A stretch of DNA of 64,000 nt from Bacteroidota bacterium (lineage in GTDB: Bacteria; Bacteroidota; Bacteroidia; Chitinophagales; BACL12). Position 1 is the first letter of the stretch; every line of letters starts with the position of its first letter. The stretch spans positions 1 to 64,000 of the forward strand of contig WGOA01000051.1 in the NCBI GenBank assembly GCA_016124275.1, in the 5' to 3' direction. Positions 1,095 to 18,005 of the stretch are shown one piece after another. A program made the translations under genes and the position numbers. Under the pieces are notes generated by a model. The model saw only the letters and a list, made by a program, of their open reading frames with translations. It had not been told where the DNA came from and did no database searches.

Positions 1095-1713
1095 GATTGT
1101 CCGTATTTCTTAGGAGGATAGTTGCGGTTTGCAGCATTTGCCCCTGTTCATCAAAAAGCACTTCATGCAGGGCCGCACCTTCTGCAGTGCGCACTTGAAC
1201 AACCACTTCGTAGCGCAGCAAGACTTTATTAATCGTGTTCGAAGCGCGCACGGCGCTGTTCGCACCTTCGTCGGCACCATCAGACTTGGTTTCGGACCGC
1301 CGTTCCCAATGCTCCTGAATGGCCGATAAACTGCCGCTGAGTTGCTCTTGCACTTTGCGCAAACGATGCTTCAGGTAGGCACTGTCAAAGTGGGCTTCCA
1401 TGGCTTTCGCCGCCGACAGGGGAACTTCCTTCCACTTGAGCTCAATTTCAACATCTTCCAACTCGCCTTCGTGATTGAATTCTACACTGTATCGCCTGCC
1501 ATTCAACGTGTACTTCGCTTCATAGGAAATGCCGTCCAAACGCTGTTCCTGGTACCACTTAATTCGCGAACCCGTAGAAATTTCATTAACTACCTTTTGC
1601 GCAGTATCCGGTACCACCTGCTGAGCAATTTTGCGCTCCTGCTCAAATTTAACTTGTGCCCTGAGTGGGACTAAAAAGAGTAGAAAATAAATATATAGAA
1701 CAATTTGTTTCAT
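1084..1713 (-). CDS. Secreted protein, possibly PepSY-like
   Basis: I chose the ATG at 1713 (MKQIVLYIYFLL) because it begins a good signal peptide with cleavage after LRAQ; the ORF track extends 7 residues upstream. The mature ~190 residues contain a YEAKYTLNGRRYSVEFNHEG strand pair resembling PepSY-like periplasmic domains, then charged helices (KVQEQLSGSLSAIQEHWERR) and a second beta-rich segment. No catalytic residues were recognised. It overlaps the downstream DUF2490 gene by 11 bases. The PepSY assignment is an inference from the strand pattern. Confidence 0.5.
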   Translation of the reverse strand: MKQIVLYIYFLLFLVPLRAQVKFEQERKIAQQVVPDTAQKVVNEISTGSRIKWYQEQRLDGISYEAKYTLNGRRYSVEFNHEGELEDVEIELKWKEVPLSAAKAMEAHFDSAYLKHRLRKVQEQLSGSLSAIQEHWERRSETKSDGADEGANSAVRASNTINKVLLRYEVVVQVRTAEGAALHEVLFDEQGQMLQTATILLRNTDNLVY

Positions 1714-1777
1714 GATATACCTTATGTTATTCAAATACTTTTGTCCATCCTCAATGAACTTAATTCGATCACCCTTG

Positions 1778-2125
1778 CTACTGATTGGATGATCGCCCCA
1801 TCCGGAAGCTCACTTCCTCGTCAAGATTGCTGAACAAAACTTCATGATTTGCTTCAATATTCGCGTGAAAGCTTTCTGGCAATCGCGTCCAATCAAAAAG
1901 TTCAACCACAATTGGAATGCTGCTTTCTTGTATTTTATCTTGCAAAATCACATAAACATCAATGGGAAATTTCTGTAAGTCCTTTGTCCGGATAACTAGG
2001 TCCAGATCACTGCCTTCATGTGCTTCGCCAGAGACCCGGCTACCGTATGCCCATACTTCAAAGGGTAGGTTAACCGCTGAAAATATTGCCAATAACCGCT
2101 CCCTATCTTTACTCCTCAATTGCAT
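1778..2125 (-). CDS. mntA: MNT-type minimal nucleotidyltransferase antitoxin
   Basis: A 115-residue minimal nucleotidyltransferase. The signature GSx10DxD is present: GS at about residues 28-29 (AYGSRVSG), then SDLDL ten residues later. A downstream acidic residue in IVVELFDW fits the third metal ligand. In HEPN/MNT (type VII) toxin-antitoxin pairs, MntA neutralises the partner by adding AMP to a tyrosine next to the toxin's catalytic motif. The gene overlaps the upstream HEPN gene by 17 bases, the expected arrangement. The intact motif suggests an active antitoxin. Confidence 0.88.
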   Translation of the reverse strand: MQLRSKDRERLLAIFSAVNLPFEVWAYGSRVSGEAHEGSDLDLVIRTKDLQKFPIDVYVILQDKIQESSIPIVVELFDWTRLPESFHANIEANHEVLFSNLDEEVSFRMGRSSNQ

Positions 2126-2540
2126 GATTCTGGAGGTTTATGGCATCAATAAAGAGACGTGCATCTCGGATAAAAGCTGGTAAAAGGACTAAAGTTTCCC
2201 GCGCAAAGTTAACACCGTAATCGTGGGCGGTGTTGTTCCGATTGTCTCTATACTCCATAAAACGCTCACAAAGTTCTGGGGTAATAATCGTTCTCAACAC
2301 AGCTTGTCTAAATATATCTTTAAAGTGAAGTTTGTCTACTGCCCTTGAAGAATGCAAATATGGCTTCAACGCCCTTTTCATCAACTTACCGCTCTGCTCC
2401 AAAATTATTTCAAACTCCTTGACGCAGGCTGAACGATACATGTCGTAGTGAATTTCCTCTGGATTAGCTTTCAGCAGCAACCCATACGCCATATCCAAGG
2501 TATTCACGCAACGCTCGTAATAGGTTGTGTCAATTTTCAT
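2109..2540 (-). CDS. hepT: HEPN-domain toxin (HepT / HI0074 family)
   Basis: A 143-residue all-alpha protein of the nucleotidyltransferase-substrate-binding (HI0074) type. The HEPN RNase motif Rx4HxY is exact: RNNTAHDY at about residues 102-109. Its Arg and His are the predicted RNA-cleaving residues and its Tyr the likely AMPylation target of MntA. The upstream helix YRSACVKEFEIILEQ is also typical. It is transcribed first, overlapping mntA by 17 bases. The pair sits in the most AT-rich part of the window, consistent with acquisition by horizontal transfer. Confidence 0.88.
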   Translation of the reverse strand: MKIDTTYYERCVNTLDMAYGLLLKANPEEIHYDMYRSACVKEFEIILEQSGKLMKRALKPYLHSSRAVDKLHFKDIFRQAVLRTIITPELCERFMEYRDNRNNTAHDYGVNFARETLVLLPAFIRDARLFIDAINLQNHAIEE

Positions 2541-2849
2541 CTTTTTGTCCTCACCCTGTTTTCCTGATAAATTCCATGCTTAAATGACCCTACTAAACGC
2601 ATGACCAATAACTGGTATAAAGCTAAGGCCAAACTACCGATCGTGAAACAGCTTTACTGTGCATTAATAAACTCACAAGAATCCTATGAATGATCTATCC
2701 TGCGTTGCGCGCAAACATAACCGTACCCATTTATAGCAGTATATTCTTGCTGCAACATTTGGGCAAAACTTAGCGATAGGATCGCTCGTGTTGCCCCCAA
2801 TTCATTCTACCTTTCCACAACTTACCATTGCGCCTTCTGAGCCATCCCA
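2541..2849. other. AT-rich intergenic region (309 bp)
   Basis: No supported gene lies between the divergent hepT and phoD-like starts. The segment is AT-rich compared with its surroundings. It contains a degenerate ATCCTGCGTTGCGC (about 2696-2709) resembling the 3' half of the dispersed CTGCGTTACGC element, and no clear terminator. Confidence 0.5.
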
Positions 2850-4343
2850 ATGCGTCAACTCCTCTTCATCCCCGTCTTCCTTTTATGCATTTCTGCGGTG
2901 CATCCCCAATCCCTCCCCCCCCAGCTCTACCCTGACTCCAAGCACGCCCCCTTTTCACAAGGCATAGCCTCCGGCGATCCGATGACTGACCGAGTCATGC
3001 TTTGGACGCGCGTGGATGGGTTGGGACCAGACGAGCGTGCTGAGCTAATCTGGCAAGTTGCCGCTGATTCCATGTTTGTGCAATTGATCGCAACAGGCAA
3101 TACCGTGGCAAAACCAAACCGCGATCATTGCGTTCACGTTGATGCGGTTGGCCTGGAGCCTGACTTCGAATACTACTACCGCTTTGGCACTTCAGCGGGC
3201 ATCTTTTCTGCCGTGGGCCGGGTACGAACACTGCCGGAAGAAACGGATCACGTAAAACTAGCCGTGTTCTCCTGTGCCAGCATCTGGGCAGGCTACTTCA
3301 ATGCCTACCGAATGGCAGCATCTAACCATAACATAGATTTTATTGTCCATTTGGGGGACTATGTTTATGATTACCCCGACGAAAGGCAGCTCAACCGAAT
3401 GCCGCCATTCGAACAAAACGATGTGACCAATTTGGAGGAATGGCGGGAACGGCACCGCTACTACCTGCTCGATGCAGATTTGCGCATTGCCCGACAAAAC
3501 AAGACTTGGATCGCCATGTGGGACAACCACGACATCGATGTGCCGGATAAAAGCCGAACGGGTGAAGCCATCCAGGCTTTCTACGAATACTTGCCTATCC
3601 GCATGCCGGATTCGCTGCATCCCGAGCGGCTTTACCGGAGTTTTGCGTTCGGCAAACTGGCAACCTTGCACATGCTGGACATGTTCTACTTCCGGGGCCA
3701 GGAAACCCATCCTGACGGCGATCTGTCGGTGCTGGGCTTGCAACAGGAAGCCTGGCTTGATCAACAATTGCGTCAGTCAAGCGCCACCTGGCAATTGCTG
3801 GGTAACCAAGAAATCATGAGCGACTGGCTGAGCCAAGGCACCCCTAAATTCATCCGGAACCGCCGCGGCAACGGCAAGGTATTCGACCCCGGAAACTGGA
3901 ACGGTTTTCCCCAGGCCCGCGAGCGCCTGTTCCAGACGTTGGAAGAACTTAGCCTGCGCAACACCATTGTCCTGAGCGGCGACATGCACATGACCTTCTT
4001 TATGGAGTTGACCAGTTGGCCTAATTGCAAGGAGCTGTATCACCCGCGCCGCGCACCGGGCAGCCTCGGCGTAGAAATTGCCGGACCCAGCGTAAGCCGG
4101 GTCAACATGCGCGAGGCCGGTGTACCAGTCGTGCTGCTTCCAATAATCAAGGGAATCAGCAACCGCGCCAATCCCCACCACAGTTGGGTCAACTTTGGCC
4201 GGCACGGCTACTTTACTGTAGATCTGACCGCGGAAAAAGCCGAGGTGGACGTCTGGTTTGTGCCCATTGATCGCATGACCGACCAAGAAAAATTGGGCAA
4301 GCGCATGACTGTGCTAACAGGCGAAGGGCATTGGCAGCGTTAA
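2850..4343 (+). CDS. phoD: PhoD-like alkaline phosphatase / phosphodiesterase
   Basis: A 497-residue secreted metallophosphoesterase. After a signal peptide (LLFIPVFLLCISAVHPQS) comes the N-terminal PhoD fibronectin-like domain (FSQGIASGDPMTDRVMLWTR, FEYYYRFGT). The catalytic domain follows: FSCASIWAGYF, DFIVHLGDYVYDYPDE, AMWDNHDID and LSGDMHMTFF provide the metal-binding Asp, Asn and His residues. Known PhoD enzymes release phosphate from phosphodiesters and monoesters outside the cytoplasm. There is no T9SS sorting domain at the C-terminus, so it is probably periplasmic or membrane-associated. It is monocistronic and converges on the export operon. Confidence 0.9.
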   Translation: MRQLLFIPVFLLCISAVHPQSLPPQLYPDSKHAPFSQGIASGDPMTDRVMLWTRVDGLGPDERAELIWQVAADSMFVQLIATGNTVAKPNRDHCVHVDAVGLEPDFEYYYRFGTSAGIFSAVGRVRTLPEETDHVKLAVFSCASIWAGYFNAYRMAASNHNIDFIVHLGDYVYDYPDERQLNRMPPFEQNDVTNLEEWRERHRYYLLDADLRIARQNKTWIAMWDNHDIDVPDKSRTGEAIQAFYEYLPIRMPDSLHPERLYRSFAFGKLATLHMLDMFYFRGQETHPDGDLSVLGLQQEAWLDQQLRQSSATWQLLGNQEIMSDWLSQGTPKFIRNRRGNGKVFDPGNWNGFPQARERLFQTLEELSLRNTIVLSGDMHMTFFMELTSWPNCKELYHPRRAPGSLGVEIAGPSVSRVNMREAGVPVVLLPIIKGISNRANPHHSWVNFGRHGYFTVDLTAEKAEVDVWFVPIDRMTDQEKLGKRMTVLTGEGHWQR

Positions 4344-8631: not shown

Positions 8632-9723
8632 ATGAAGGCAACTTTCGTCCTTTCCGTCCTGCTCGGGGTGCTTACAACTGCCGCCAACGCCCAGCTAACC
8701 CTGACCAGCGCCGATTTCCCGGCCACCGGCCAAACCTACCGGATCAGCCTGGCCGATACCCTCCTTGCCATTGACCCCGCACCCACCGGCGAGGACTTTA
8801 CCTGGGACTTTTCCTTTCTGGAGCCGGTTTCGCAAAGCGAAGAAGGTTGGGTAACTCCGTTTGAAACAAATATTCTTTACTTTTTCCTGTTTGGAACCTC
8901 CAACATGGCGCAGGAATTATCCCTGCCTGTAATACCCGGGTTGGAACTGACAGACGCCTTCAATTTTTACCAGCGCAACAGTGGAGCATTTTCGCAGACC
9001 GGGCTGGCCGGCCTGTTTACCGGCATTCCGATCGTGATCGCGTTTGAAGACGCCGACCGCATTGCGGCTTTTCCCCTGACCTACGGCAGCATTGACAGCG
9101 ATGCCTCTGCGTTTGAATTTGAGGTGCCTACCCTTGCCGCTTTGCGCGAGGAACGGCAGCGCGAAAGCCTGGTGGACGGTTGGGGCACCCTGATTACTCC
9201 TTACGGAACTTTTGATGTGTTGCGGCAGATTGCCATCCTGAACATTCGCGATTCGCTGAGCGGTTCACTCGGCGAATTTGTGCTGGAGCGCCAAACCATT
9301 GAATACCGCTGGCTCGGTGCCGGTACCGGCGTGCCCCTGCTGCAAATTGACGTGCAGGTGCTGGGCGAAACGGCGGTCATCAGCCGCATCGCGTACCAGG
9401 ACAGCTTGCGCAGCGTGGAGCCGCCTGTTGGTCTGACCACTCCGCTGTTGAGCAACGCGCAGCTCTTCCCCAATCCGGCGCAGAATCAGGTATGGCTGCA
9501 GGGCACGACCTCCCGACCCACCGAAATGTCACTGCAACTCCTTGATGCGCTTGGGCGCACGGTGCGCACATGGCCCCCACAACAGTTGCCCGCAGGCAAC
9601 TTCTCCCTTCCCCTGAATCTGAACGGATGTTCAGCTGGGCTGTACTGGCTGCATGCCTGGTCAGGGGCTGCACGTTCGGGCGAAGGGATTCCGCACTTCG
9701 TGCAACCGCTTCTGATAGAGTAA
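8632..9723 (+). CDS. Secreted T9SS type A sorting-domain protein of unknown function
   Basis: A 363-residue protein with a Sec signal peptide (VLLGVLTTAANAQ). It ends in a type A T9SS sorting domain: LFPNPAQNQVWLQ begins it, LLDALGRTVRTW is the central strand, and LNLNGCSAGLYWLHAW precedes the C-terminus. The ~270-residue passenger (SADFPATGQTYRISL, TYGSIDSDASAFEF) belongs to a group of Bacteroidota cargo proteins I cannot assign to a function. It should cross the outer membrane by T9SS and be anchored or released. Confidence 0.8.
   Translation: MKATFVLSVLLGVLTTAANAQLTLTSADFPATGQTYRISLADTLLAIDPAPTGEDFTWDFSFLEPVSQSEEGWVTPFETNILYFFLFGTSNMAQELSLPVIPGLELTDAFNFYQRNSGAFSQTGLAGLFTGIPIVIAFEDADRIAAFPLTYGSIDSDASAFEFEVPTLAALREERQRESLVDGWGTLITPYGTFDVLRQIAILNIRDSLSGSLGEFVLERQTIEYRWLGAGTGVPLLQIDVQVLGETAVISRIAYQDSLRSVEPPVGLTTPLLSNAQLFPNPAQNQVWLQGTTSRPTEMSLQLLDALGRTVRTWPPQQLPAGNFSLPLNLNGCSAGLYWLHAWSGAARSGEGIPHFVQPLLIE
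9677..9687 (+). repeat. CGGGCGAAGGG copy (+ strand)
   Basis: 11-mer copy inside the T9SS protein gene near its 3' end, again encoding SGEG; the twelfth base is A instead of C. Confidence 0.65.
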
Positions 9724-9933: not shown

Positions 9934-10740
9934 ATGTCGTTCAAAAAATCAAGCGCGAACCAAAAACACGACCAGCAAAAGCGCCGCCATTGGAGCCAGC
10001 TGTTCCATACTTCCAGCAACAGTCCCCGCGCTGCCATAGCACCCGAACAGCTTGACCGATTGTCCAAAGAGCGCTCAAACTCGCACCTGTATTTTCTGGT
10101 GGGCTTAGTGTTCAGTATTCTGGTGGTGCAAAGTGCATTCAGCTGGAAACCTTCAGCAACACCCCATACGCCCCTCCCGCGACCGGACGAAGTCAGCATT
10201 GAACTGGTGGAAATGATGGATCCGGTTAAAGTCATCGAAGAAGAGAAGAGTGCAGCAGAGCCTCAACCCAACACGCCCCCCCTGATCATCGACCTCAGCG
10301 TTATTACGGTAAGCAAAAAACCCTTGCTCGACACCAAACCCGAACCGCCGCCTTCCATTGACCGGGCCCAGGCGTTTCGCCGCGATGATGAAGAAGTTGA
10401 CGACCCGTTTGTCACGGGCAACATTATCACCGACCGCGCGGATGTAAACCCCATGTTTCCCGGGGGTCAGGAAGCGTTCGATGCCTTTCTGAAAAAACAC
10501 ATCCGCTATTCATCCGCAGCATTGTCCTACGGAATCGAAGGCGCCGTGGAGGTCAGTTTCGTCGTGGACACGGCCGGCAACCTGTCTGATTTCAAGGTTT
10601 TGAAAGGCATGCCTTATGGCATGGACAAAGAAGTGTTGCGGGTTATGGCCCAAAGCCCGCGCTGGATTCCCGGCAGCATCAAAGGTCACGCCGTTGCCGT
10701 GCGCTACAAAAAGAGCGTGCGGTTTGAGATCAAGAATTGA
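9934..10740 (+). CDS. tonB: Energy transducer TonB
   Basis: A 268-residue TonB protein. A basic cytoplasmic N-terminus of ~45 residues precedes a single membrane segment (YFLVGLVFSILVVQSAFSW, ~50-70), a Pro/Glu-rich periplasmic linker, and a C-terminal TonB domain (~175-268) with PMFPGGQEAFDAFL, IEGAVEVSFVVDTAG and the closing MAQSPRWIPGSIKGHAV. TonB couples the proton motive force via ExbB/ExbD to outer-membrane receptors such as the one at 21-23 kb. No exbBD lies nearby. The long N-terminal cytoplasmic extension is unusual but seen in Bacteroidota homologues. The 210 bp upstream hold no supported gene. Confidence 0.88.
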   Translation: MSFKKSSANQKHDQQKRRHWSQLFHTSSNSPRAAIAPEQLDRLSKERSNSHLYFLVGLVFSILVVQSAFSWKPSATPHTPLPRPDEVSIELVEMMDPVKVIEEEKSAAEPQPNTPPLIIDLSVITVSKKPLLDTKPEPPPSIDRAQAFRRDDEEVDDPFVTGNIITDRADVNPMFPGGQEAFDAFLKKHIRYSSAALSYGIEGAVEVSFVVDTAGNLSDFKVLKGMPYGMDKEVLRVMAQSPRWIPGSIKGHAVAVRYKKSVRFEIKN

Positions 10741-10777: not shown

Positions 10778-12559
10778 CTACTTATATCCGGCCTGTTGCA
10801 GCAAATACCGCGCTCGGTCAGGGTCAAACGTGAAGCCCTTGACCTCCTTGTGCGGGTACTGCGGGTATGAGGGAGGAACGATGCCGTAGTAGGCCGGAGC
10901 CGCATTTCCCTTGAGCACAAAGTCGCAAATTTTGTCGCGGTCAATGGCGTAGTTGAAGGCCTGGCGCACCAGCGGATTGCTGAAAATGCCATCGGGGTCC
11001 GGGTGCAGAAAGCCGTAGTACTCCACCATCATGTTCTGCACATACTGGAGCTGATACTTGCTGTACTCCGGCGTAAACTTGCGCTCCGTGCCGCTCCGGT
11101 CCACGATTTGGTCGTACATGTCCAGAGGCAAGCGAAACTTCAGATCGAATTCCCCTTTCTGGAAGGACAACATCTCGGACTTCTCCTCGGAGATAAAGCG
11201 CACATTGATGCCGTCCAGGTAAGGCAGTTGGTTGCCGTGCGCATCGCGGCCCCAATAGTTATCGTTGCGCACCATGACCACGTTGTCGTTGTCTTTGACT
11301 TTGCGCATCAGAAAAGGACCGGTGCCCACTGCCTTGGCGCGCATTTCGGTGCCGTACTTTTCATAGGCTTCCTGCGGCCATACCGCACAAAAAGGCATGC
11401 TGAGCATGCTTAAAAAAGCGGCGAAAGGATCGTTCAATTCAATTTGAAACGTGTAGTCATCCAGTGCGCGGACGCCCGCAATGGCCGGGGCATCGGGGTT
11501 CTTAGCGCCGTTGGCATCGTAATAGGCCCGCGCCCCTTTGATGCGATCCACGAAGAAGCTGAAGCCTTTGTTGGCGCCATCCGGCGTGCAGAGCTGGTTG
11601 AAACAATAGACGAAATCCTGCGCGGTGACGCCGCGGCCCTTTCCCCCTGCAAAAGAAGGGTCATCGTGAAAACGGACATCCCGGCGAAGCTTAAACGTAT
11701 AGACGCGGGCGTCATCCGAAATTTGCCAGCTTTCGGCTATGCAGGGCTCAACTGCCAGTGTCGTGTGGTCCAAGGTGATTAACCCTTCGTACACCTGGTT
11801 GACGATGCGGTGGCCTACCACTTCGCTGACATTGAGCGGGAACATGGAGCGCAGGTACTGGGTTTCGTTGTAGCGGAACACGCCGCCGCGCTTCACTCCG
11901 CCTGGCAATGGCTTGATGTCGGCATTGTAGGGGTTGTCGGGGTGGTTGTCCATCCAGACTTCGGTGAACAGGCGGTACTCCATCGGGTTCTGCGGGCAGT
12001 TGCGCACATAGGGCTGGAGCAAACGGTGGTCAATGTTGTAGTACAGGGGAAGCATGGCTGCGTCCTGCACCAGCAGCTGATCCGCCTGACGGTAGAGGTC
12101 CATGCGGGCGGTTTCATCCACGGTGCGCAGCGCGCGGACAAACAGCGTATCAAAGGCGGCACTCTGGTAGCGCACCGAATTGATGTACGAATTGGTGCTG
12201 AGTTCAGGCGGCACGTGCGCGCCGTACATCAGGTTCAAAAAGTTCTCCGGGTCGGGATAGTCGGCCACCCAACCGGCGCGCCAAAAACGGGCCTTTCCCG
12301 ATTCCAGGTTTTCGTAGTGCTGTGCAAACTCCACCTGCTGAATCTGCACGGTGATGCCCAAATTTTCCTGCAACATTTTCTGCACCGCTTCCGCTACCTG
12401 AGCGTTGCGGCCGCCGCCTGCGTTAATCTGCAAAGTCACCACGGGAAAATCCTTGGCCTGGCCGGAGTCCGAGCCGGAATCAGCACCGGAGCCGCAGGAA
12501 GGGGCCAGAAAACCGAGGGCCGCAAACACTGCGGCCATAACATAATTTTTAATGTGCAT
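10778..12559 (-). CDS. Circularly permuted SBP_bac_5 (oligopeptide-type) substrate-binding lipoprotein
   Basis: A 593-residue lipoprotein (lipobox LAPSC, Cys at 22). In ordinary family members the order is signal peptide, N-terminal lobe, AESW/GTGPF region, RQAFNYAID, AGY, then the C-terminal lobe with DYPDPENFL and the final helices. Here the C-terminal lobe comes first: DFPVVTLQINAGGG at ~37, DYPDPENFL at ~100-108, YRQADQLLVQDAAMLPLYY at ~156-174, VWMDN at ~201. A ~17-residue linker leads to the usual N-terminus (KRGGVFRYNE at ~223), AESW at ~275, GTGPF at ~412 and RQAFNYAIDR at ~532. The protein stops right after LLQQAGYK. All parts seem present once, so this is a permutation, not a truncation. 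No permease or ATPase genes adjoin it. Confidence 0.85.
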   Translation of the reverse strand: MHIKNYVMAAVFAALGFLAPSCGSGADSGSDSGQAKDFPVVTLQINAGGGRNAQVAEAVQKMLQENLGITVQIQQVEFAQHYENLESGKARFWRAGWVADYPDPENFLNLMYGAHVPPELSTNSYINSVRYQSAAFDTLFVRALRTVDETARMDLYRQADQLLVQDAAMLPLYYNIDHRLLQPYVRNCPQNPMEYRLFTEVWMDNHPDNPYNADIKPLPGGVKRGGVFRYNETQYLRSMFPLNVSEVVGHRIVNQVYEGLITLDHTTLAVEPCIAESWQISDDARVYTFKLRRDVRFHDDPSFAGGKGRGVTAQDFVYCFNQLCTPDGANKGFSFFVDRIKGARAYYDANGAKNPDAPAIAGVRALDDYTFQIELNDPFAAFLSMLSMPFCAVWPQEAYEKYGTEMRAKAVGTGPFLMRKVKDNDNVVMVRNDNYWGRDAHGNQLPYLDGINVRFISEEKSEMLSFQKGEFDLKFRLPLDMYDQIVDRSGTERKFTPEYSKYQLQYVQNMMVEYYGFLHPDPDGIFSNPLVRQAFNYAIDRDKICDFVLKGNAAPAYYGIVPPSYPQYPHKEVKGFTFDPDRARYLLQQAGYK

Positions 12560-12601: not shown

Positions 12602-13378
12602 TTACCAACCCGGCAGATCCAAATCTACGGTAATGGGGCAATGATCGCTGTGATGTGCATCTGGCAAAATAGCCGCACTTTTCATGCTTGCAGCCAACGG
12701 CTGCGACACCGCGTGGTAATCAATGCGCCATCCTTTGTTGTTATTGCGGGCATTGGCCCGAAAGCTCCACCAGGTGTATTGGTGCGGTAATTCCGGGTGA
12801 AAATGCCGGAAACTGTCCACCATGCCCGTGGCAAAATACTGCTCCATCCACTCCCGTTCTTCGGGTAAAAATCCCGAAGAATTCTTGTTGCTCACCGGAT
12901 CGTGGATGTCAATGACGCGGTGGCAAATGTTGTAGTCGCCGCAGATGACCACCTTGGGCCGGGTTGCGCGCAAAGCCTTTTGGTAGGCCATGAAGTCTTC
13001 CAGAAACTGCATTTTCACCACCTGCCTGTGGTCGCCGGATGAGCCGGAGGGCAGGTAAGCAGACACCACGGTCAGCTCGCCAAAATCGGCGCGGATTACC
13101 CGTCCTTCTGCGTCGTGAGCCGGCACCCCCATTCCCTCGATAACCTGATCAGGCTTGCGGCGGCTCAGAACAGCTACCCCGGAATACCCCTTTTTCTGCG
13201 CCGGATGCCAAAAGCAGGCGTAACCCATCTGCTCAAAAAGGCTGGTATCAAACTGCTCCGGATTGGCCTTGATTTCCTGAAAACAGACTACGTCCGCGTT
13301 GGCAGTAGCCAGGAAATCGAGCAACCCGCGGTTCATGGCGGCGCGAATACCGTTTACATTGTAGCAGAGAATGCGCAT
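12602..13378 (-). CDS. xth: Exodeoxyribonuclease III
   Basis: A ~258-residue EEP-fold AP endonuclease/3'-5' exonuclease of base excision repair. The family hallmarks are complete: LCYNVNGIRA at the start (metal-site Asn), CFQEIKAN (catalytic Glu), GDYNICHRVIDIH (Asp/Asn), WRIDYHAVS, and HHSDHCPI near the end (general-base His). I start it at the ATG at 13378 (MRILCYN), where the family begins. The same frame is open upstream through a 15-bp tandem repeat to an ATG at 13471, which would add a 31-residue KATISK-repeat tail. The binding-protein gene follows it 42 bases downstream. Confidence 0.93.
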   Translation of the reverse strand: MRILCYNVNGIRAAMNRGLLDFLATANADVVCFQEIKANPEQFDTSLFEQMGYACFWHPAQKKGYSGVAVLSRRKPDQVIEGMGVPAHDAEGRVIRADFGELTVVSAYLPSGSSGDHRQVVKMQFLEDFMAYQKALRATRPKVVICGDYNICHRVIDIHDPVSNKNSSGFLPEEREWMEQYFATGMVDSFRHFHPELPHQYTWWSFRANARNNNKGWRIDYHAVSQPLAASMKSAAILPDAHHSDHCPITVDLDLPGW

Positions 13379-13390
13379 GCTTTGTTTCTC

Positions 13391-13465
13391 CTTACTGATG
13401 GTGGCCTTACTGATGGTGGCCTTGCTGATGGAGGCCTTGCTGATGGTAGCCTTGCCGAAGGAGGC
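13391..13465 (-). repeat. Tandem repeat, five 15-bp units
   Basis: Five units of CTTACTGATGGTGGC and variants. The first two are identical and the later three diverge, ending CTTGCCGAAGGAGGC. Because the unit is 15 bp it keeps the xth frame open and could encode an (ATISK)n N-terminal extension of exonuclease III. Confidence 0.85.
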
Positions 13466-13483
13466 TGGCATTACCCCAAACGC

Positions 13484-14299
13484 TCACTCATTGTCCAGGA
13501 CGCGCACCTTCATTTTGACATCCTTAGCAGGGCGGTCGCCTGCTCCGGTTTGCACTGCTGCAATTTTGTCAATCACGTCCAGCCCGTCAATGACCTCACC
13601 AAAAACGGTGTAGCCGCCGTCCAGTTGGGGCGTGCCGCCAACGGAAAAGTAGGTTTCCTTCTGCGCTCCGGTATAGCCGTTTTGCGCTTCCATTGGGCCC
13701 AGGCTTTGTGGCGTGTGGAGCGTTCCCTGCACAATGTAAAACTGCGAGCCGGAAGAGGCCCGCTCGGGATTGATCTGATCGCCCATGCGAGCCGCCGCCA
13801 GCGCACCTTTTTTATGCACATACTCCGGACGGATTTCGGCGGGAATCTTGTACTCCGGGCCACCCTGGCCCAGTTGAACAGACGGCGCAGCTCCGCGCGA
13901 ATCCGGGTCACCGCCCTGAATCATGAAACCGGCAATGACGCGGTGAAACAACAAATCATCGTAGTACCCTTTACTGGCCAGCTTAATGAAATTTTCGCGG
14001 TGTTTGGGCGTGCCGTTGTAGAGCTTGGCGGTCATGGTGCCATAGTCCGTGGTAATTTCCACCAGCGTTTCCGGGCCTTCGGGTATCGGGGGAAGGGCCG
14101 GTTTGGGTACCTCTGCCGTAGCGCCGCTGCCATAGAGGCCGCTCGTTCCCGTACCCGATTCCCCCGAGTCTGCGGCGGAATCCGCGCCGCTGCCGCAACC
14201 GGCAAGGCCCGTCATCAGCAGCCCGGCAACCAGCAGGCACAGTCTGGAATGGGTGGTCAGGCCCCGAAGGCCGCGAAGGGTAGGAACGTTTGCAAACAT
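13484..14299 (-). CDS. Cyclophilin-type peptidyl-prolyl isomerase lipoprotein
   Basis: A 271-residue protein with a lipoprotein signal (GLLMTGLAGC) and a low-complexity linker starting CGSGADSAADSG, then a cyclophilin domain (~85-270). Catalytic-pocket motifs are present: FHRVIAGFMIQGGD (Arg and Gln), SGSQFYIVQG, and VFGEVIDGLDVIDKIA. Compared with minimal cyclophilins it has an insertion between the last two motifs (LHTPQSLGPMEAQNGYTG), shared with the paralogue at 17.2-18.0 kb. It should assist folding in the periplasm or at the outer membrane. A TAAATTTG box about 100 bases upstream may be its promoter. Confidence 0.9.
   Translation of the reverse strand: MFANVPTLRGLRGLTTHSRLCLLVAGLLMTGLAGCGSGADSAADSGESGTGTSGLYGSGATAEVPKPALPPIPEGPETLVEITTDYGTMTAKLYNGTPKHRENFIKLASKGYYDDLLFHRVIAGFMIQGGDPDSRGAAPSVQLGQGGPEYKIPAEIRPEYVHKKGALAAARMGDQINPERASSGSQFYIVQGTLHTPQSLGPMEAQNGYTGAQKETYFSVGGTPQLDGGYTVFGEVIDGLDVIDKIAAVQTGAGDRPAKDVKMKVRVLDNE
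14087..14098 (+). repeat. CGGGGGAAGGGC copy (+ strand variant)
   Basis: One-mismatch variant of the polar motif, on the + strand, inside the minus-strand cyclophilin gene (linker region PPIPEG). Confidence 0.5.
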
Positions 14300-16770: not shown

Positions 16771-17211
16771 TTACCCAAGGCCCACTCCGCGCGCCACCAA
16801 GGTAGCCAGCAGCGGCATGATGAACACAATCAACAGTTCCATGCGGAGAAACATGACAATGCGCTTGGGGACCGCCACAACTTCTTCGGCATTGCCTTTG
16901 CGCTGCTTCAGAAAAAAGACCGTCGGCCAGATGGACAAAATGCCCATGATGACAAACAAGGTCACTTTGGTGTGGAAGATCGGGTTCTGCGTGTAGTAAT
17001 CGGCATTCTTAAAACCGCCCAACCACATGCCCAGACCACAACCGAGCACCAGCAGTGCACCGGCCCCATAGATGCCGTCAAGGGTGGCCAGCCTGGAAAT
17101 CTCCTTGCGCGTCAGGCTCGGTTTGATCAACAAGTGTTCAGCCACCAACGAGGAGGCAATGGCCAGAATGCCCAGAAAATGACCGTAGCGAATCAGAATT
17201 TCTGCATTCAT
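16771..17211 (-). CDS. DUF2214 family integral membrane protein
   Basis: A 146-residue protein with four predicted membrane segments (ILAIASSLVAEHLL, GAGALLVLGCGLGMWLGG, KVTLFVIMGILSIWPTVFF, ELLIVFIMPLLATLVARG). The N-terminal RYGHFLGILAIASSLVAEH and the LDGIYGAGAL segment fit the DUF2214 family, whose function is unknown. The start codon overlaps the stop of the upstream cyclophilin gene by 4 bases, so the two are translationally coupled. Confidence 0.75.
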   Translation of the reverse strand: MNAEILIRYGHFLGILAIASSLVAEHLLIKPSLTRKEISRLATLDGIYGAGALLVLGCGLGMWLGGFKNADYYTQNPIFHTKVTLFVIMGILSIWPTVFFLKQRKGNAEEVVAVPKRIVMFLRMELLIVFIMPLLATLVARGVGLG

Positions 17212-18005
17212 AAAGACAGCTCCTTCATGAGCTTTTCCAACTTCTCCGCTTTGAGCAGCGTCATGGTCATCTTAACGTCCTCCACGGGTCGGTCGCGCGA
17301 ATCGGTGGATGTTGCCGCAATCTGATCAATCACTTCCAGCCCTTTGATGACCTGGCCAAAAACCGTGTACTGGCCATCCAGTTGCGGGGTGCCGCCAACG
17401 GTGGCATAAGCGGCCTTCTGCTCTTCGGTGTACTCGCGACCGGTGCGGGCCGCTAAACCGGTAAGGTTCTCCGGGGCATACGTCTGGCCCTGGACAATGT
17501 AAAATTGAGAGCCGGAGCTGGCGCGTTGCGGGTTGACGTTGTCGCCGGTGCGGGCTGCAGCCAGCGCACCTTTTTTGTGAATCAAGGCATTGTTAAACTC
17601 TCCAGGTACGGTGTAACCCGGACCGCCGGAACCCAGCGATGCCCCTGCTTCAGCACCTTTTGAAGCGGGATCGCCGCCCTGCACCATGAATTGCTTGATG
17701 ACGCGGTGAAAAATCAGGTCGTTGTAAAAACCTTCCTGAACCAGGCGGACAAAGTTGTCGCGGTGTTGCGGGGTTTCGTTGTACAGCAGGATGGTCATGC
17801 TGCCGAATTTGGTGCTGAGTTCTACAAGTTGCACGATCTCTTTGCTTTTTTTGGCCTTCTTCGACGGTTTTGGCGCTGGGCTGGCCGCCGCATTGCTTTC
17901 CTGGCTGCCTGTTTGAGCCTGGACCGAAGACGCGAAGGGGGTTAGGGTAAAAATCAGGCCGAGAATCAAGGCCTGGGCGCGAAATGGGCTTTGGAAAAAG
18001 CGCAT
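17208..18005 (-). CDS. Cyclophilin-type peptidyl-prolyl isomerase, secreted
   Basis: A 265-residue paralogue of the cyclophilin at 13.5-14.3 kb. It has a signal peptide (LILGLIFTLTPFASSVQAQ) instead of a lipobox, then a Lys/Pro/Ser-rich linker (PKPSKKAKKSKE) and a cyclophilin domain with FHRVIKQFMVQGGD, SGSQFYIVQG and VFGQVIKGLEVID. The insertion before VGGTPQLDG is shared with the other copy. It heads a probable four-gene run cyclophilin-DUF2214-SDR-monooxygenase (4 bp overlap, 48 bp gap, 4 bp overlap). Confidence 0.9.
   Translation of the reverse strand: MRFFQSPFRAQALILGLIFTLTPFASSVQAQTGSQESNAAASPAPKPSKKAKKSKEIVQLVELSTKFGSMTILLYNETPQHRDNFVRLVQEGFYNDLIFHRVIKQFMVQGGDPASKGAEAGASLGSGGPGYTVPGEFNNALIHKKGALAAARTGDNVNPQRASSGSQFYIVQGQTYAPENLTGLAARTGREYTEEQKAAYATVGGTPQLDGQYTVFGQVIKGLEVIDQIAATSTDSRDRPVEDVKMTMTLLKAEKLEKLMKELSL

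Follow-up and report, generated by a model that had tools for sequence, protein, structure and literature searches.

The window, a stretch of 64,000 nucleotides, carries a gene that is very probably a genuine and fixed circular permutation of a substrate-binding protein (SBP) of the SBP_bac_5 family (cluster C), the type that serves oligopeptide and dipeptide ABC importers, and we infer that its product closes as OppA does. The parts of the gene are as follows.

10778 to 12559, minus strand: complete permuted SBP_bac_5 reading frame, 593 aa, open throughout
12494 to 12559, minus strand: signal peptide and Cys22 (residues 1-22, ending LAPSC), recognised in the sequence; LAPSC is also present in the congener
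12452 to 12493, minus strand: spacer after Cys22 (residues 23-36, GSGADSGSDSGQAK)
11942 to 12451, minus strand: C block (residues 37-206), the C-terminal part of normal orthologues
12260 to 12262, minus strand: Asp100 in WRAGWVADY, aligned with OppA Asp419
11894 to 11941, minus strand: linker (residues 207-222) that connects the former C-terminus with the former mature N-terminus, of equal length in the congener
10781 to 11893, minus strand: N block (residues 223-593), usually the first two thirds of the protein, ending LLQQAGYK

PF00496 (SBP_bac_5) is the sole Pfam family matched in the 593-residue reading frame, in two stretches that together cover the whole domain and score 281.9 bits against a curated cut-off of 32.4. 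Both profile 2-283 (E 1.5e-69) and profile 286-362 (E 4e-14) are matched in the genome profile search, the latter nearer the N-terminus, so that the order is swapped. A phmmer search against the PDB places residues 231-565 on OppA 18-322 and residues 50-188 on OppA 369-498, once each. With E. coli OppA (3tcf) the first match ends at query residue 592, chain residue 354, and the second starts at query residue 32, chain residue 352; the matches adjoin at chain residues 352-354, which places the cut near OppA residue 353. The NCBIfam OppA model NF011684 aligns with a normal orthologue in one stretch and with the permuted protein in two. The rotated block order that the initial annotation described relative to SBP_bac_5 proteins is thus borne out to the residue by Pfam, OppA and orthologue alignments, and its statement that each block is present in single copy and without a frameshift holds throughout the 593 open codons. 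The blocks depart from the collinear N-to-C order of the domain: they occur once each and are rotated, with the old termini joined and the new termini at a point where relatives are continuous, which makes the protein a circular permutant rather than a collinear family member.

Both junctions can be read directly. At the cut site normal orthologues read AGYPNGKGFPKxTLQINSGGGRN or similar, with the loop PNGKGFP uncut. The permuted protein ends in QAGYK, immediately followed by the stop codon, and its first block after the signal and spacer starts with DFPVVTLQINAGGGRN; the sequence with which it restarts past the AGYK cut point is DFPVVTLQINAGGG. Comparison with the normal orthologues confirms the earlier observation that the C-terminal LLQQAGYK marks the exact point where relatives continue. 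At the other junction, the segment preceding the linker extends to the normal C-terminus, and the end of the linker (PGGVKRGGVFRYNE) resembles the boundary between spacer and mature N-terminus of the normal orthologue L011 (KGGVKYGGVFRYNE).

The initial annotation had proposed looking for the same order in related genomes, and an independent genome of the same genus (G001) shares it. Its rotated gene (L005, ORF 1420-3231) aligns with the permuted protein without gaps over 557 aa, linker included, at 72% identity, and both species have in common the flanking sequence of cyclophilin, exonuclease III, SBP and convergent TonB-C gene, which in the window are:

13484 to 14299, minus strand: cyclophilin-type prolyl isomerase (PF00160), a neighbour conserved in the congener
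12602 to 13471, minus strand: exonuclease III-type gene (PF03372), directly upstream of the SBP
9934 to 10740, plus strand: TonB-C protein (PF03544), encoded convergently next to the SBP gene and present in the congener too

The permuted genes lie inside contigs of 80.8 kb and 21.4 kb in the two species. Between them dN is 0.21 and dS 1.44, the latter near saturation, which gives a dN/dS of about 0.15; the values for the neighbouring exonuclease III gene (dN 0.28, dS 2.03) are close to this. Judged by these substitutions, the permuted gene is under purifying selection. Of 70 columns that do not vary among 24 normal orthologues, 68 and 67 are retained in the two permuted proteins, and only one such residue is absent from both, the glycine of the interrupted loop. 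This retention is our strongest indirect evidence for an intact fold and function.

Full-length orthologues, about 25 in all and belonging to other families within the order, have their blocks in the normal order. The orthologues L006-L030 have the same invariant residues as the permuted protein, to which they are 44-54% identical in the N block and 46-66% in the C block, and several lie beside the same exonuclease III gene; they differ in their normal chain order and in the uncut PNGKGFP loop. Exonuclease III neighbours the SBP in seven normal-order loci (L010, L018, L020, L021, L025, L026 and L027), and since normal orthologues are also found beside it, the gene appears to have been permuted in place, at what seems to be the ancestral locus. 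In a tree built from the blocks put back into one common order, the permuted pair forms one 100/100 clade, nested among the normal orthologues and with ordinary branch lengths; as reconstructed from these alignments, the permutation arose once. No orthologue was found in the other four members of the family (G002-G005), which have exonuclease III without an adjacent SBP, plus a paralogue at about 40%, and none of the viral contigs searched for a deeper alignment held further relatives. Judged by eye, exonuclease III in these four genomes (L119-L122) lies mostly beside sulfatase-like genes. More generally, genes for exonuclease III and a peptide SBP have stayed close together in several families of the order, with no obvious functional link between them.

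The permuted arrangement seems to be rare. Of 399 genomes of the order, only the two that belong to this genus gave junction-spanning matches, and of 395 genomes of the class and 396 of the phylum only G000, the genome of the window, did so, the three samples overlapping and the query reaching only SBPs of this phylum's type. Two survey matches that extend past the junction, in G125 and G1008, have the normal order on checking. A generic junction profile applied to another phylum is uninformative on independent permutations, since even the permuted protein described here gives two separate matches with it.

What route could have produced the rotated gene? Most likely, a tandem duplication that preserved the frame and reached from the spacer to a point shortly before the stop codon would have given the arrangement signal-spacer-N-C-spacer'-N-C. 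If the first N block was then deleted and the last C block cut short within the loop, signal, spacer, C, spacer' and N would have been left. As the signal peptide is kept once and the linker contains no second signal, the duplicated segment must have begun after the signal and lipobox. The initial annotation had suggested a tandem duplication followed by loss of the outer halves; the duplication fits, but, given the single signal, one that starts in the spacer, with internal deletion and C-terminal truncation, would fit better than loss of the outer halves. Both the end product and the retained junction remnants agree with the general mechanism of permutation by duplication and partial loss, from which this case differs in that the signal and lipobox stay in place. 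No remnant of the intermediates is visible, and a regional search for repeats or mobile-element remnants at the junctions found nothing but short, imperfect repeats, none visibly linked to the junctions.

Other origins of the block order have to be weighed against duplication and partial loss. It might have been introduced during assembly, or be a rearrangement confined to one strain that yields no functional product, and both genomes are indeed fragmented drafts (96 contigs for G000 and 420 for G001). However, the order, the junctions, the linker length and the neighbours are common to two independent genomes with 72% protein identity, and a dN/dS this low is not expected of a dead gene, so that we assign this reading a negligible chance; misassembly in particular is rejected, since two unrelated assembly errors could not yield identical order, linker length and synteny. 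The initial annotation would have taken normal-order homologues with the same flanks as a sign of misassembly, and such homologues do exist, several of them adjacent to exonuclease III, but they represent the ancestral state. A residual copy in normal order was not found in G000, where the only other SBP_bac_5 gene is distant and adjoins its own permeases. The C block could also have been cut and pasted into the spacer, which would give the identical end product (signal, spacer, C block, spacer', N block), and this product by itself hardly distinguishes the two routes. Yet such a transposition would need a traceless landing inside the spacer, and the regional repeat search shows no mobile-element remnant; we therefore regard it as unlikely and prefer duplication with partial loss.

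The structural consequences can be drawn from the domain limits of OppA, in which domain I comprises residues 1-44, 189-269 and 487-517, domain II residues 45-188 and domain III residues 270-486 (PMC6305025). By these limits the normal termini are both in domain I, whereas the new cut near OppA residue 353 is in domain III, and the C block is equivalent, with domain limits from the same source, to the second half of domain III and the last segment of domain I (PMC6305025). The permuted chain would thus run through the second half of domain III, the last segment of domain I, the linker, domain I, domain II, domain I and the first half of domain III, and on this domain map it would cross between the lobes twice, like the normal chain. 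The bilobed fold would close as in OppA, with the linker of about 16 residues joining the old termini in domain I and the new termini sitting in a loop at the surface of domain III. The better of our AlphaFold2 models is mediocre, with a pTM of 0.62 and a mean pLDDT of 66.7, with a low-confidence linker region at residues 185-250; its alignment was made from distant unpaired fragments and screened for C-block fragments misplaced by MAFFT. An earlier AlphaFold model reached a pTM of 0.46. Foldseek retrieves OppA and DppA structures at E of about 1e-17, with about 400 columns aligned and TM values of 0.33-0.43 by query length, in a sequential alignment that cannot score a permutation.

With respect to ligand binding, D100 corresponds to OppA Asp419, and the surrounding RAGWxADY context is conserved. 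OppA Asp419 binds the peptide N-terminus through its amine (PMC6305025, PMC5736914), and the equivalent residue in DppA is D436 (PMC12136057). Like the OppA/DppA-type SBPs (PF00496, cluster C), the permuted protein contains the whole domain once and shares the peptide-amine Asp, and it differs from them in a chain rotated at OppA residue 353 or thereabouts, in termini located in domain III instead of domain I and in the added linker. We consider it most likely a working peptide-binding protein, which would bind short peptides via D100 and pass them to a dispersed DppB/DppC-type permease. Only two SBP_bac_5 genes were found in G000, one of which adjoins its own permeases on contig C36. Dispersed DppB/DppC-type permease genes lie on contigs C79 and C66 (L110 and L111), away from any SBP gene. 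As no other candidate SBP was found in G000, the permuted protein may serve this permease pair; the assignment is by elimination, and the G000 assembly is 93% complete. Genes for SBP and permease are on separate contigs also in normal-order relatives, where contig positions were compared, and several SBPs are known to share one Dpp permease in Pseudomonas (PMC4206461).

How the protein is held at the membrane depends on its N-terminus. In both species a hydrophobic signal is followed by Cys22 within LAPSC, with Pro at position -2. Proline at this position of the lipobox is atypical of the motif. The lipoprotein signal named in the initial annotation is supported by the Cys, conserved in both species, and weakened by the atypical LAPSC lipobox. 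We regard it as a probable lipoprotein signal with predicted lipidation, and if the Cys is lipidated, the anchor has probably moved from domain I to domain III.

The permuted protein could instead be functional without a lipid anchor, with LAPSC cut by signal peptidase I or left unprocessed and the change of termini a neutral accident for anchoring. The Pro at -2, present in both species and atypical of the motif, speaks for this, but in both species a hydrophobic signal leads to a Cys at the same position, with a spacer rich in Ser, Gly and acidic residues, and in most normal orthologues, too, the signal ends in a Cys, so that we hold an unanchored protein to be improbable in comparison with a lipidated one. 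A more radical departure would be a protein that folds and is maintained but no longer works in import: released from the permease through its new point of anchorage, it would act as a tethered peptide sensor, buffer or chaperone. The gene forms no operon with permease genes, and the side of the anchor has probably changed; however, almost every residue that is invariant among the normal orthologues persists and no class of these residues has disappeared, SBP and permease are on different contigs in the compared normal-order relatives too, and the genome retains a permease pair that has no other candidate SBP. This makes a role outside import very improbable, and a peptide importer component is the function that we favour.

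The initial annotation knew of no described case in this family, and our literature search agrees: under the terms tried, no earlier report of a permuted oligopeptide-binding protein was found, although natural permutation is known in another SBP cluster. The closest precedent, Tp0684 (MglB-2) of Treponema pallidum, a lipoprotein SBP assigned to 'Type Ic / Cluster Bc', is likewise naturally permuted, still binds ligand and closes, and its authors propose membrane tethering as the driver (PMC4990184). It differs in belonging to SBP cluster B, in binding sugar, in its cut and in a fourth lobe crossing; its permuted part is barely recognisable by sequence (13% identity), and its topology occurs in several bacterial groups (PMC4990184). 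The present protein falls outside the MglB-2-like Type Ic, as SBP_bac_5 is the only family matched and the cut lies in domain III of an OppA-type protein. Unlike that of MglB-2, the SBP_bac_5 permutation is recent enough for residue-by-residue reading.

Natural circular permutations are usually so old that their origin, cut and ancestral state have to be guessed. For the permuted SBP_bac_5 protein, sequence comparison reveals the cut and the linker, shows which order is ancestral at this locus, and traces the rearrangement to a single origin. If the protein folds as proposed, the OppA fold tolerates termini in domain III in nature, biosensor design gains a naturally tested cut site, and the tethering idea put forward for MglB-2 becomes testable with permuted and normal orthologues that are about 50-60% identical. 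The new termini might, hypothetically, alter the geometry of docking. It is possible, though somewhat doubtful, that this recent cluster C permutation shifted the tether out of domain I, in lobe I, to domain III, in lobe II, and was selected for altered opening, closing or permease docking. If so, the moved tether, together with close relatives that still have the ancestral order, would amount to a natural experiment on the reasons why some anchored SBPs become permuted.

Elsewhere in the window, the cyclophilin-type prolyl isomerase at 13484-14299 (minus strand) has a paralogue 3 kb away at 17208-18005 (minus strand), the two being about 59% identical. A protein with a Por_Secre_tail sorting domain, a cargo of type IX secretion and as such indicative of Bacteroidota, is encoded at 8632-9723 (plus strand).
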